64,000 nucleotides of DNA, from contig NZ_LMNG01000030.1 in assembly GCF_001423295.1 (NCBI RefSeq), positions 124,358 to 188,357 of the forward strand, in the 5' to 3' direction. The notes under the pieces are model-generated. The model worked only from the letters and a program-made list of their open reading frames with translations. It did not search any database and was not told the origin of the DNA. The number at the start of each line of letters is the position of its first letter. Within the stretch, counting starts at the first letter, position 1. Source of the DNA: Methylobacterium sp. Leaf112. GTDB lineage: Bacteria; Pseudomonadota; Alphaproteobacteria; Rhizobiales; Beijerinckiaceae. Position numbers and translations under genes: made by a program. Positions 27,393 through 30,254 of the stretch are shown here, in pieces.

Positions 27393-27417
27393 GGAACCGG
27401 GGCGAAAACTTGGCGTT
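27393..27417 (+). promoter_or_regulatory. EcfG-type promoter of the DUF1328 gene
   Basis: GGAAC (27393-27397), exactly 16 bases, CGTT (27414-27417); a full consensus match. Transcription would begin about 50 bases before the start codon at 27477. Confidence 0.75.
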
Positions 27418-27476
27418 ATTGCTGCAATGAGGTCGCAGCCTGACGCTGCGCCAAATCTTTCGAAGGATAGAGTCAG

Positions 27477-27653
27477 ATGCTCGGTTGGGCCGTAACATTC
27501 CTCGTCGTCGCCCTCGTGGCAGCTCTGCTCGGTTTCGGCGGTATTGCCGGCACCGCCATGGAAGCCGCGAAGCTCGTGTTCTTCGTCGCCATCGTTCTGT
27601 TCGCCATCTCCGCCGTCATCGGCCTGATGCGCGGACGTTCCCCGACCCTCTGA
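27477..27653 (+). CDS. DUF1328 (YtjA-type) small membrane protein
   Basis: Fifty-eight residues, almost entirely two membrane helices ([20 protein letters not shown] and [20 protein letters not shown]) around [10 protein letters not shown], the hallmark of DUF1328 proteins. These tiny inner-membrane proteins often belong to stress regulons, but their action is unknown. A consensus EcfG promoter lies 60 bases upstream. It converges on nepR; the gap contains a 9-bp stem-loop (27680-27701, CGGGTGGGC/GCCCACCCG) that may end both transcripts. Confidence 0.85.
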
Positions 27654-27779
27654 CGGGCGTCGGTTCGCACGGCACCGGCCGGGTGGGCATCGGCCCACCC
27701 GAAGCGATCAATGAGGGCCGCCGGCGCATCGCCGTGCGGCTCTCGTCGATTCGGATGGTACGGGCGCCGGATCGGCGCC

Positions 27780-27998
27780 TCAGGATGTCGCTTCGTCCGG
27801 CGGGGACGCTTCGAGCTGGGCAATGAGATCGCGGAAGCGGTCGGGTACCGGTTGCTGCACGACCGTATCGTACATGGCCCGAAGGTGCAGACCGATGCGC
27901 TTCTGGGTGTGGTCGCTGAGGCCACGGCCACGGGTGTCCTCGTCGGCACGCACGGTACGATCCCCAGGGGCGGGATCGCCCTTGTCGTGTGTGTTCAT
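27780..27998 (-). CDS. nepR: Anti-sigma factor NepR
   Basis: A 72-residue anti-sigma factor of the alphaproteobacterial general stress response. It holds EcfG inactive until phosphorylated PhyR takes it away. After a disordered, charged N-terminus comes the conserved helix pair LSDHTQKRIGLHLRAMYDTV, then VPDRFRDLIAQLE, which makes the contacts with both the sigma factor and PhyR. The ATG at 27998 has AAGGGGA upstream; an in-frame ATG at 28058 lacks this signal. It is divergent from phyR with its own EcfG-type promoter, giving feedback. No ecfG gene is next to it, although in many relatives nepR and ecfG are adjacent. Confidence 0.93.
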   Translation of the reverse strand: MNTHDKGDPAPGDRTVRADEDTRGRGLSDHTQKRIGLHLRAMYDTVVQQPVPDRFRDLIAQLEASPPDEATS

Positions 27999-28077
27999 GC
28001 GTCGATTCCCCTTGATGCCGGACACCGGCATCGCCGCGATTGTTTTGCGGCTTGACATAGGTCATGGCTGCAGCTGC

Positions 28078-28102
28078 AACGCCGATGCGATCAGTCGGTT
28101 CC
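28078..28102 (-). promoter_or_regulatory. EcfG-type promoter of nepR
   Basis: Minus strand GGAAC (28102-28098), 16 bases, CGTT (28081-28078); a full consensus match. It lies back to back with the phyR promoter, with only eight bases between the two -35 elements. Confidence 0.75.
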
Positions 28103-28110
28103 CGTCAGGC

Positions 28111-28135
28111 GGAACGGAGCTCTCCAATCCGCGTT
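28111..28135 (+). promoter_or_regulatory. EcfG-type promoter of phyR
   Basis: GGAAC (28111-28115), 16 bases, CGTT (28132-28135); a full consensus match. Transcription would start about 45-50 bases before the phyR ATG. Confidence 0.8.
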
Positions 28136-28189
28136 GTGGCGGAAGCGGCCAAGGCACGTGGCCAAGAACGGCAAAGCCAAGGGGATAGT

Positions 28190-28993
28190 ATGTCGACAGC
28201 CCAACTCGTGGTGCAGCACCTGCCGTATCTGCGCCGCTACGCTCGGGCGCTCACGGGTAGTCAGGTCGCCGGAGACGCTTACGTCGCCGCCACCCTCGAG
28301 ACCCTCGTGAACGAGCCCGAGACGCTCGGCCGCAGTGCCAACGTCAAGGCCGATCTCTTTCGCGTGTTCACGCGCATCTGGAATTCCCTGTCGGTGAACG
28401 GCCAGAGCGAGCAGGTGCAGCACGACCTGCCGGCCGAAGTCCGGCTCGGCCAGATTACGCCCCTGCCGCGCCAGGCCTTCCTTCTCTCGTGCCTCGAAGG
28501 GTTCTCGGAGGAAGACGCTGCAATCATCCTCGACGTCGACGTCAGCCAGGTTCGCGACCTCGTCGACGAGGCCGGCCGTGAACTCGCGGCCGACATGGCG
28601 ACCGAGATCCTCATCATCGAGGACGAGCCGCTCATCGCCATGGACCTCGAAGCCCTGGTGGAAGGGCTCGGCCACAACGTCATCGGCGTGGCCCGCACCC
28701 GCACGGAGGCGATCAAGATCGCGTCCGAGGGGACCCGCCCCGGACTCATCCTGGCGGACATTCAGCTCGCCGATGGAAGCTCGGGCCTCGATGCTGTCAA
28801 CGACCTCTTGAAGACCTTCGAGGTGCCGGTGATCTTCATCACCGCCTACCCCGAGCGCTTCCTCACCGGCGAGCGTCCGGAGCCGGCCTTCCTCATCGCC
28901 AAGCCGTTCCAGCCCGCGAACGTCTCCGCGGTGATCAGCCAGGCGCTGTTCTTCCAGCAGAGCGCACGCCGCCGCGAGGTCAAGTCGGCCTGA
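28190..28993 (+). CDS. phyR: General stress response regulator PhyR
   Basis: Response regulator and sigma-factor mimic. When phosphorylated its sigma-like domain binds NepR and frees EcfG. It has 267 residues. An EcfG-like domain without DNA-binding ability covers about 1-130 (LPYLRRYARALTGSQVAGDA, then LPRQAFLLSCLEGFSEEDAA), and a receiver domain covers about 138-260 with the acidic pocket IEDEP, the phospho-acceptor D190 in LILADIQLADGSSG, and the conserved T and K in FITAYP and IAKPF. PhyR was first described in Methylobacterium extorquens. AAGGGG precedes the ATG at 28190. It has a consensus EcfG promoter and a terminator directly after the gene. The cognate kinase is not in the window. 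Confidence 0.95.
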   Translation: MSTAQLVVQHLPYLRRYARALTGSQVAGDAYVAATLETLVNEPETLGRSANVKADLFRVFTRIWNSLSVNGQSEQVQHDLPAEVRLGQITPLPRQAFLLSCLEGFSEEDAAIILDVDVSQVRDLVDEAGRELAADMATEILIIEDEPLIAMDLEALVEGLGHNVIGVARTRTEAIKIASEGTRPGLILADIQLADGSSGLDAVNDLLKTFEVPVIFITAYPERFLTGERPEPAFLIAKPFQPANVSAVISQALFFQQSARRREVKSA

Positions 28994-29031
28994 ACGCCCC
29001 TCGACCCCACGATCCTCGGCAACAAACGACG

Positions 29032-29062
29032 AAAGGCCCCGTCACATGCCGGGGCCTTTTTG
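29032..29062 (+). terminator. phyR terminator
   Basis: AAAGGCCCCG (29032-29041) pairs with CGGGGCCTTT (29050-29059) across an 8-base loop, ending in a run of T. It lies 40 bases after the phyR stop. Confidence 0.85.
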
Positions 29063-29100
29063 CTGACCTGTTCGGACCGGGCCCGTGGCGGCTGAAGGAC

Positions 29101-29195
29101 GAAAAAACGGGCCGGAGATCGCTCTCCAGCCCGTCGAAAAGGTTCCGGCCTATGCACAAGGGGATGCGGGGGGAGGACCAGGCGGCCGGGGTGAC
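29101..29195 (-). ncRNA. Predicted EcfG-dependent small RNA with C-rich loop (GsrN-like)
   Basis: No protein-like frame is seen here, but the minus strand has all parts of a small RNA gene. A consensus EcfG promoter (29225-29201) comes first. A 5' stem follows, CCGGCC (29189-29184) with GGCCGG (29150-29145), whose 33-base loop holds the C-tract CCTCCCCCCGCATCCCC (29176-29160). A terminator comes last: stems ACGGGC/GCCCGT (29134-29129 with 29112-29107) and GGAGA/TCTCC, a GCGA loop and a run of T (29107-29102). Expected length is about 90-95 nt. Caulobacter GsrN, controlled by the equivalent sigma factor, likewise uses a C-rich 5' loop to bind mRNAs and ends in a terminator. Homology to GsrN is inference from layout. 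Confidence 0.6.
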
Positions 29196-29200
29196 CAGAC

Positions 29201-29225
29201 AACGATCCGACCTCGCTGTCGTTCC
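29201..29225 (-). promoter_or_regulatory. EcfG-type promoter of the predicted small RNA
   Basis: Minus strand GGAAC (29225-29221), 16 bases, CGTT (29204-29201); a full consensus match pointing into a region with no protein gene. The remaining stretch to the next promoter (29226-29369) shows only two T-runs (29250-29255, 29267-29272) and no gene. Confidence 0.7.
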
Positions 29226-29369
29226 GTCTCCCGGCATGGGCAACTCGAATTTTTTGCGCACAGCGGTTTTTTCGCAACACTTGCAGTTCGGCGGAAGCAG
29301 GATTTCCGTCAAATCGTAACGATCCGTACTTCGAGCTGTACTGGAGATTGCTCAATTCGAAACAGTCGA

Positions 29370-29394
29370 GGAACCCGAGACTGCGAGACGCGTT
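29370..29394 (+). promoter_or_regulatory. EcfG-type promoter of the secreted 126-aa protein
   Basis: GGAAC (29370-29374), 16 bases, CGTT (29391-29394); a full consensus match. The transcript would start about 35 bases before the ATG at 29436. Confidence 0.75.
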
Positions 29395-29435
29395 TGCTCG
29401 ATATCCTGTCAAGCTCCTCATCGGAGATTACGACG

Positions 29436-29816
29436 ATGTTTCGGTCAGGCCTCCTCCTCAGTGTCAGTGCACCGGCTGCGCTCCTGACATTGCTGATCCA
29501 GCCGACCGTCCAGCAGGCTGCCGACCAGAGGGCACTCCGGGCAGCACCATCGACCGTCATTCAGGTCACCTTGTCTGGACCGGACCTTCCCGGGCAGCGC
29601 GTTGCATCGACGGCGATCAGTCCGGTGCGCTTCGCGTCCGTGAGCCGCCCGTCATCCCTCCCGAAGCCCGGTGTACTCGGACAGAGCGGCCGGACCGCGA
29701 GTGAGAAGGATCAGCCGAAGGTTCGCCGCTCGATGCGCGAAGGCTGCGAAGGCGCCATCAGCTCACTGGCCGGACCGGAGGCGCGCCGCATGCTCCCGGG
29801 TCGTTGCATTTCCTGA
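29436..29816 (+). CDS. Putative secreted stress protein (126 aa)
   Basis: A 126-residue protein with a hydrophobic export signal (MFRSGLLLSVSAPAALLTLL), a variable S/P/R-rich middle and a conserved-looking end REGCEGAISSLAGPEARRML followed by PGRCIS, in which two cysteines could form a disulfide. Proteins with a similar cysteine-bracketed C-terminus occur in Methylobacterium and relatives, function unknown. GGAGA stands nine bases before the ATG at 29436, and a consensus EcfG promoter precedes it, placing it in the general stress response. A bidirectional terminator follows about 100 bases after the stop. Confidence 0.6.
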   Translation: MFRSGLLLSVSAPAALLTLLIQPTVQQAADQRALRAAPSTVIQVTLSGPDLPGQRVASTAISPVRFASVSRPSSLPKPGVLGQSGRTASEKDQPKVRRSMREGCEGAISSLAGPEARRMLPGRCIS

Positions 29817-29921
29817 TTTTCGTCGACCGGGAGTCGCTCCAGCACAACCTTCGTCATGGTCGCGCATAGGCCGACATCGCCAAGAACTGGTTCTTGGATG
29901 AGAAGACTCTGAAGGGGCATG

Positions 29922-29956
29922 AAAAAGGCCTCGTCCATTTCGGACGAGGCCTTTTT
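29922..29956. terminator. Bidirectional terminator
   Basis: A perfect 15-bp stem, AAAAAGGCCTCGTCC (29922-29936) with GGACGAGGCCTTTTT (29942-29956), and a 5-base loop. Runs of T on both strands let it serve both the secreted protein gene and the converging KGG gene. A second small stem with a TTCG loop (29972-29991, minus strand) precedes it on the KGG transcript, and CAAGAAC-TG-GTTCTTG lies at 29881-29896. Confidence 0.9.
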
Positions 29957-30002
29957 GTTTCAATTGAGCTTGGAACCCCCGAAGGGGCTCCAATGACCGG
30001 TA

Positions 30003-30194
30003 TCAGTCCTCGCCTGGGCGACCGGTGCCGGTGGACTGACCACCCTTGCGACCGGCGGACGACGCCAGTTCGCGATCTTGGGAGAACGAGCGCTTCTCGG
30101 CCGGCACACTGCGCCCGCCCTTGCTCGCGATCTCCCGTTGCCGCTCCAGATCCATCGAGGCAAAGCCCCGCTTCGAGGTGGAGTTCGATGCCAT
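30003..30194 (-). CDS. KGG-repeat stress-induced protein
   Basis: A 63-residue hydrophilic protein with two KGG motifs (IASKGGRSVPAEKRSFSQD and SSAGRKGGQSTGT), as in the GsiB/YciG group of general-stress proteins. Such proteins are intrinsically disordered and are thought to protect cells during drying or starvation. The ATG at 30194 has GAGGAGG upstream. An EcfG-type promoter ends about 35 bases before the ATG, which fits the family's usual stress control. Confidence 0.88.
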   Translation of the reverse strand: MASNSTSKRGFASMDLERQREIASKGGRSVPAEKRSFSQDRELASSAGRKGGQSTGTGRPGED

Positions 30195-30229
30195 CAGCGC
30201 CTCCTCAGATTTGCTCTCACTGCCAAGAC

Positions 30230-30254
30230 AACCTTCACCAATATCGATGGTTCC
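30230..30254 (-). promoter_or_regulatory. EcfG-type promoter of the KGG gene
   Basis: Minus strand GGAAC (30254-30250), 16 bases, GGTT (30233-30230): one base from the CGTT consensus. It is about 28 bases from the predicted transcript start to the ATG. Confidence 0.65.

Follow-up and report, generated by a model that had tools for sequence, protein, structure and literature searches.

A conserved small-RNA gene with an EcfG-type promoter beside phyR in Methylobacterium and the probable pairing of its RNA with the phyR and nepR ribosome-binding sites

Alphaproteobacteria are known to control their general stress response by a partner switch of proteins. This work describes a small RNA (sRNA) gene that lies beside the switch gene phyR in a stretch of 64,000 nucleotides (nt) from Methylobacterium sp. 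Leaf112 (contig NZ_LMNG01000030.1, positions 124,358 to 188,357). That whole 64-kb stretch is what we call the window, and positions are counted from its first letter. Six of the nine EcfG-type promoter sites in the window fall within 27393-30254, where they precede a DUF1328 protein, nepR (the anti-sigma factor), phyR (the anti-anti-sigma factor), the sRNA, a small protein (29436-29816) and a KGG stress protein (30003-30194). This region is the core general-stress locus. The sRNA gene occupies the minus strand of the gap that follows phyR, with phyR pointing towards it from the plus strand, and on the sequence evidence its existence is near certain. Of its two C-rich loops, the second is complementary to the ribosome-binding site of phyR and to that of nepR, and the sRNA may thus help to reset the stress switch. 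We put the probability that this is an EcfG-driven RNA feeding back on the translation of these two genes at about 0.6. The parts of the RNA gene are as follows.

29225-29201, minus strand: EcfG-type promoter of the sRNA, GGAACGACAGCGAGGTCGGATCGTT, of the form GGAAC-N17-GTT (pattern match; relatives have the same kind)
29194-29102, minus strand: predicted sRNA of about 93 nt (start placed by promoter spacing; fold; model R1)
29189-29184, minus strand: left arm of the 5' stem, CCGGCC, pairing with 29150-29145 (compensatory changes in relatives)
29150-29145, minus strand: right arm of the 5' stem, GGCCGG (fold model, compensatory changes)
29168-29182, minus strand: loop 1, CCUGGUCCUCCCCCC, anti-Shine-Dalgarno-like, CUGGUCCUCCCC in most aligned relatives (alignment, model)
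29154-29167, minus strand: small hairpin GCAU-CCCCUU-GUGC, its GCAU and GUGC arms carrying loop 2 (alignment, model)
29135-29102, minus strand: intrinsic terminator, a 13-pair stem at 29135-29106 with a T-run to 29102 (fold; compensatory changes)

An earlier, sequence-only reading had proposed a general-stress sRNA here, in a 442-bp gap after phyR, with an EcfG promoter at 29225-29201, a C-rich loop at 29176-29160 and a terminator with a T-run. Its coordinates all check out against the sequence: phyR ends at 28993 and the next plausible gene begins at 29436, the promoter and terminator are where it put them, and the three plus-strand heptamers said to compete for the terminator stem are found as well. 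The minus strand reads CCTCCCCCCGCATCCCC at 29176-29160, which we refine into loop 1 of the 5' stem and a second C-tract in the small hairpin. In the predicted fold the 5' stem encloses C-rich loop 1 together with this hairpin, which has the second C-tract as its loop, and the terminator comes next. The predicted folding energy of the 95-nt RNA is -40.6 kcal/mol (z -3.5), a value that none of 200 shuffles reaches. Loop 2 is 87% unpaired in the predicted ensemble; it is generally AUUCCCCUUG, the window having the variant AUCCCCUUG. The loops in most rows of the alignment read GUCCUCCCC and UUCCCCUU.

The RNA is conserved across the genus and a little beyond it. When the stretch was compared by BLAST with 199 family genomes, 38 had a match at an E value of 0.01. 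Twenty-one BLAST loci, the window's own included, share the nearly invariant core CUGGUCCUCCCCGCAUUCCCCUUGUGCAU, and the remaining matches are short, with E values of 1e-4 or weaker. Model R1, built from 20 relatives with the window left out and with a structure that we supplied, finds the window at 29194-29138 (65.5 bits, E 1.9e-14; the next match in the window has E 0.035), a recovery that is not fully independent because the 20 training loci were found with the window as query. Among 397 family genomes, 106 are matched by the model at E 0.1. The 45 matching genomes of the window's genus, itself included, reach E 2.1e-10 or better, and none of the 20 unmatched family genomes listed (there were 271 others) belongs to that genus. 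Clear matches outside the genus occur in g32 and g36 (Microvirga by name), and weaker ones (E 4e-9 to 3e-8) in g20 (Salinarimonas, a name taken from one of three). A promoter-plus-core scan of the species-genome collection returned 70 stretches, 69 of which read as the sRNA; one match, L160, was rejected as a chance match at a start codon. These stretches belong to Methylobacterium, Methylorubrum, Microvirga, Salinarimonas, or metagenome-assembled genomes of Beijerinckiaceae/Methylobacteriaceae. The pattern demands UUCCCC, so the window's own variant was missed by it.

Wider scans gave little that could be kept. Across the order, 11 of 397 genomes scanned had weak matches outside the family (E 4e-4 to 0.09), and a class scan of 385 genomes gave four (E 0.014 to 0.027). 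We dropped these, as well as the weak BLAST matches L030-L038, because neither phyR nor nepR was present in the fetched stretches. Nor did any of them show an EcfG-type promoter in the 110 nt ahead of the centre of its stretch (L032 is off-centre and the promoter check is weak there). In Rfam (release 15) neither the window nor five relatives' loci matched any family at the gathering threshold; the best match, BjrC68, scored 25.4 bits against a threshold of 39, on the terminator half only, and was rejected.

Conservation of the promoter, the C-tract and the stem had been named beforehand as the thing to look for in relatives, and all three are present. The promoter GGAAC-N16-18-GTT stands in all 45 distinct loci of the genus and ends 20, 21 or 24 nt before the core GGTCC; a T5 run is found in the stretch examined at 38 of those 45. 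In stem 1, changes on both sides keep the pairing in 4 of 6 pairs (33 distinct rows, diverged copies included), and the covariation score is reached by 0 of 500 shuffles, in an alignment that had been fitted to the model. In an unfitted 21-row MAFFT alignment, where stem 1 is invariant, 4 of 7 terminator pairs have changed on both sides. Comparison of relatives thus establishes, at the level of sequence, the promoter, the structure and their conservation. The location is conserved too: of 113 distinct main-copy loci, 109 have phyR on the opposite strand no more than 1 kb away, and 103 have nepR in the fetched stretch.

Some loci depart from this layout. Four keep the sRNA with no phyR found in the fetched stretch (L107, L125, L158 and L209; the stretches of L107, L125 and L209 are 8-10 kb). 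Genus g41 has a shortened sRNA, encoded beyond the end of phyR and on the other strand (L283, L284, L326; model R2, E 0.0035 to 0.007); it has the same stem, a terminator and, in 3 of 4 cases, an EcfG-type promoter, with loop 2 missing. The fourth stretch, L323, has no phyR. There are also nine diverged extra copies of the sRNA (L090-L093, L094, L095, L097-L099). Their promoters read GGAAC...GTT in four and GGAAC...ATT in three, and there is none in L091 and L095; most retain loop 2 (not L093 or L095), with loop 1 altered. Among their neighbours one sees, by eye, KGG remnants, nepR- or ecfG-like genes, a small heat-shock-like gene and a response regulator.

The features that bear on the proposed targets are these, with one further hairpin.

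28190-28993, plus strand: phyR, with PhyR sigma-like domains and a receiver domain (Pfam PF22029, PF22233, PF00072)
28111-28135, plus strand: EcfG-type promoter upstream of phyR (pattern match)
28178-28186, plus strand: predicted target site in the phyR ribosome-binding site, CAAGGGGAT (complementarity)
27780-27998, minus strand: nepR, anti-sigma factor NepR, from its likely true start at an internal ATG (Pfam PF18557)
27780-28058, minus strand: longest nepR open reading frame
28078-28102, minus strand: EcfG-type promoter upstream of nepR (pattern match)
28006-28014, minus strand: predicted target site in the nepR ribosome-binding site, CAAGGGGAA (complementarity, with the start taken at 27998)
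29032-29059: separate hairpin between phyR and the sRNA

In the window phyR begins with CAAGGGGAT-AGT-ATG, in which CAAGGGGAT is complementary over nine bases to AUCCCCUUG of loop 2. Genera with the sRNA have AGGGGA in the 30 nt ahead of phyR in 68 of 70 distinct start regions (one false phyR match, L090/L151, is left out), compared with 2 of 53 in other family genera and 0 of 3 in g41, where the sRNA lacks loop 2. For the looser motif AAGGGG or AGGGGA the three counts are 69 of 71, with the false row still in, 6 of 53 and, for g41, 0 of 3. To make up the outside set, 56 of the 65 eligible genomes were joined by four stretches around the weak g41 matches, three of the 60 being dropped for having no phyR. 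AGGGGA is found in 0 of 267 start regions of the neighbouring genes kgg, duf1328, crp, glyoxalase, ldt, small protein and ppdk, and kgg starts have GGAGG in 36 of 36. Duplexes of loop 2 with the phyR start have a median energy of -17.1 kcal/mol over the 70 regions, compared with -10.4 for phyR of genera without the sRNA, and none of 100 shuffled loops is as low as loop 2 (run on 40 of the 70 regions).

For nepR the argument depends on which start is used. We believe the gene probably starts at the internal ATG at 27998 and not at 28058, as the longest reading frame would have it. The internal ATG comes with a ribosome-binding site and, of the two, is the better fit to the EcfG promoter. An earlier tally at the other start codon (AGGGGA in 4 of 61), along with its duplex energies, was replaced because that start was judged wrong. 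When both sets are treated alike, by taking the ATG with the best ribosome-binding site, genera with the sRNA have AAGGGG or AGGGGA ahead of nepR in 87 of 97 distinct regions (AGGGGA in 68), and the others in 0 of 22. The two target sites are predicted to be partly unpaired (55% and 57%). Across the genome AAGGGGA-N3-8-ATG stands at 25 places, against 14 for a control pattern, and phyR and the internal nepR start are among them. Two others in the same genome, L350 and L355, look by eye like the genes for 5-aminolevulinate synthase and ribosomal protein L1; these start after AAGGGGA and may be further targets of loop 2.

The complementarity of loop and site, and the conservation of both, follow directly from these comparisons, and they make phyR and nepR probable targets of loop 2. 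We propose the following mechanism. Stress frees EcfG, and phyR, nepR and, judging by its promoter, the sRNA would be transcribed together. The 5' stem would present the two C-rich loops and the intrinsic terminator would end the RNA. Loop 2 would then pair with the phyR and nepR ribosome-binding sites at AAGGGGA, shortly before the start codon, and an occupied site would block translation of both core regulators. After EcfG release the synthesis of PhyR and NepR would thus be limited, which would help the switch to reset. A fuller version of this proposal is slightly better than an even bet in our judgement: one sRNA loop would bind the ribosome-binding sites of anti-anti-sigma and anti-sigma factor alike and form a post-transcriptional feedback arm, loop and phyR site occurring together in Methylobacteriaceae and Salinarimonas and the nepR site outside Salinarimonas, and the diverged Microvirga copies would extend the arm to secondary stress loci.

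Several points speak against this proposal. Whole-RNA co-folding does not support the two targets: when the window RNA is folded together with the phyR start, the nested structure has -12.5 kcal/mol, a value matched or beaten by 27 of 200 shuffles, and for nepR the figures are -7.7 kcal/mol and 85 of 200. Three control genes gave 21, 99 and 40 of 200, so phyR and nepR do not stand clearly apart, in a method that excludes pairing of a hairpin loop with a leader. The genome has a single CAAGGGGAT-N3-7-ATG, the one at phyR, but it also has a single match to the control pattern, and the uniqueness of the site therefore adds little. AAGGGGA is a workable Shine-Dalgarno sequence, so its conservation could serve translation alone. 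The genera with both RNA and site are relatives, so the species counts are not independent and the association may rest on one or two events. The target sites were noticed after inspecting neighbouring leaders and were not predicted beforehand. The small hairpin that presents loop 2 has no both-side change in either the 33-row or the 21-row alignment. Exceptions exist in both directions: L015 and L199 have loop 2 but no phyR site, L304 and L331, from other genera, have AGGGGA with no sRNA detected, the looser motif precedes phyR in the 6 of 53 mentioned above, and Salinarimonas (3 loci) has the phyR site with the nepR site missing. Finally, a test in Caulobacter found no feedback of GsrN on transcription of the general stress response (PMC5869019).

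That last point leads to the alternative that survives best, which we nonetheless consider unlikely. It holds that this is a GsrN-like EcfG sRNA acting through loop 1 on downstream stress mRNAs, for example a catalase leader, with AAGGGGA being only a preferred ribosome-binding site. GsrN sets the precedent by its action on katG, loop 1 is roughly as conserved as loop 2 in the alignment, and co-folding does not strongly single out phyR or nepR. However, the neighbouring genes use different sites, as the kgg counts show, and in the regions examined from genera without loop 2 the site is rare before phyR and never precedes nepR. Loop 1 (CUGGUCCUCCCC, which holds CCUCC) is probably for other G-rich mRNA leaders, but no target was found for it: its exact complement GGGGAGGACC is not enriched, occurring 11 times in the genome (one being the sRNA locus itself) against 15 for the control.

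Less probable again is that the sRNA resembles alpha-r14/cuckoo in acting as an anti-Shine-Dalgarno RNA of general reach, one that reduces translation wherever an mRNA has a G-rich ribosome-binding site. It does carry CCUCC in loop 1 and CCCCUU in loop 2. The alpha-r14/cuckoo RNAs such as NfeR1 (PMC10746234 and PMC3927594) likewise have anti-Shine-Dalgarno motifs in loops and silence by pairing at the translation start, as NfeR1 does with ntrB. However, alpha-r14 RNAs have three hairpins each with CCUCCUCCC in the loop (PMC10746234, PMC3927594), whereas this sRNA has one stem, two different loops and an EcfG-type promoter. The motif CCUCCUCCC is absent from it in the alignment, it belongs to no Rfam family at threshold, and the 25 genome places with AAGGGGA shortly before an ATG (control 14) are not many genes.

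We give marginally less credence still to the idea that this is the small RNA proposed as one way to raise EcfG3 post-transcriptionally in M. extorquens, acting on the ecfG leader. One clade of ecfG paralogues does have a G-rich leader, GUAGAGGGGCGGACA, but this evidence is thin: the match amounts by eye to about 4+4 pairs around a mismatch in that one clade, and duplex energies computed for ecfG leaders were set aside for want of a background. That the stretch is no RNA gene at all, but codes for a small protein or serves the phyR locus as a DNA element, is scarcely credible: mechanical open reading frames span it on both strands, but the four that cross the RNA (191 and 110 amino acids on the minus strand, a plus-strand frame from 29085 tested as its first 117 amino acids, and 55 amino acids on the plus strand) have no match in Pfam, the C-tract is 4, 5 or 6 long and differs by one or two bases between species, which breaks any frame, and the compensatory stem changes and near-fixed promoter spacing argue for an RNA. 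The first reading had likewise seen no credible frame on the minus strand.

Its comparison with GsrN can be supported as an analogy, since promoter, locus and C-rich 5' loop are alike, and we file the sRNA as GsrN-like, not as a proven homologue. According to PMC5869019, GsrN of Caulobacter crescentus is driven by SigT/EcfG and has a C-rich 5' loop and its own terminator, all three of which are predicted here too. Its predicted homologues are typically near ecfG, nepR and phyR; this sRNA is beside phyR. The difference is that GsrN activates katG, while this sRNA has two C-rich loops, one matching the phyR and nepR ribosome-binding sites. The likely targets may differ from those of GsrN: no feedback of GsrN on general-stress transcription was found in Caulobacter, whereas the sites here precede phyR and nepR. 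The same source reports that nepR-sigT mRNA co-eluted with GsrN in Caulobacter. It assigns putative homologues in Rhizobiaceae, Rhodopseudomonas and Bradyrhizobium by an EcfG-type promoter and closeness to general stress genes, some with transcriptome data; the Rhizobiaceae candidates have a loop (C-rich in its text, G-rich in its legend) flanked by a small hairpin and by a stem with the 5' end, which, compared by description, resembles this sRNA. A word search of its main text finds neither Methylobacter- nor Rhizobiales. No homology to GsrN in sequence was found: among 385 class genomes model R2 gave nothing below E 0.01 outside the genus, in a sample that may or may not hold genomes bearing GsrN.

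A few observations concern the surroundings. The small protein at 29436-29816 (plus strand, 126 amino acids, EcfG-type promoter at 29370-29394) has no match in Pfam, and tblastn finds it at many relatives' loci. The six ecfG-like genes of this genome sit on other contigs. At L229 an ecfG-like gene has upstream of it, by eye, a NepR-like stretch in another frame, as if nepR and ecfG overlapped; this bears on the nepR-ecfG fusion proposed in PMC4814048.

No description of this sRNA was found in the open literature searched, including the available parts of PMC6520949 and PMC8103513. If our reading is true, the protein partner switch would gain a layer of feedback through a conserved RNA that it produces itself and directs at two of its core genes. 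A genus important to work on plants and on methanol would then have a GsrN-like regulator of its own. Whether an RNA underlies the PhyR-dependent post-transcriptional control reported in M. extorquens (PMC4814048) also becomes testable.
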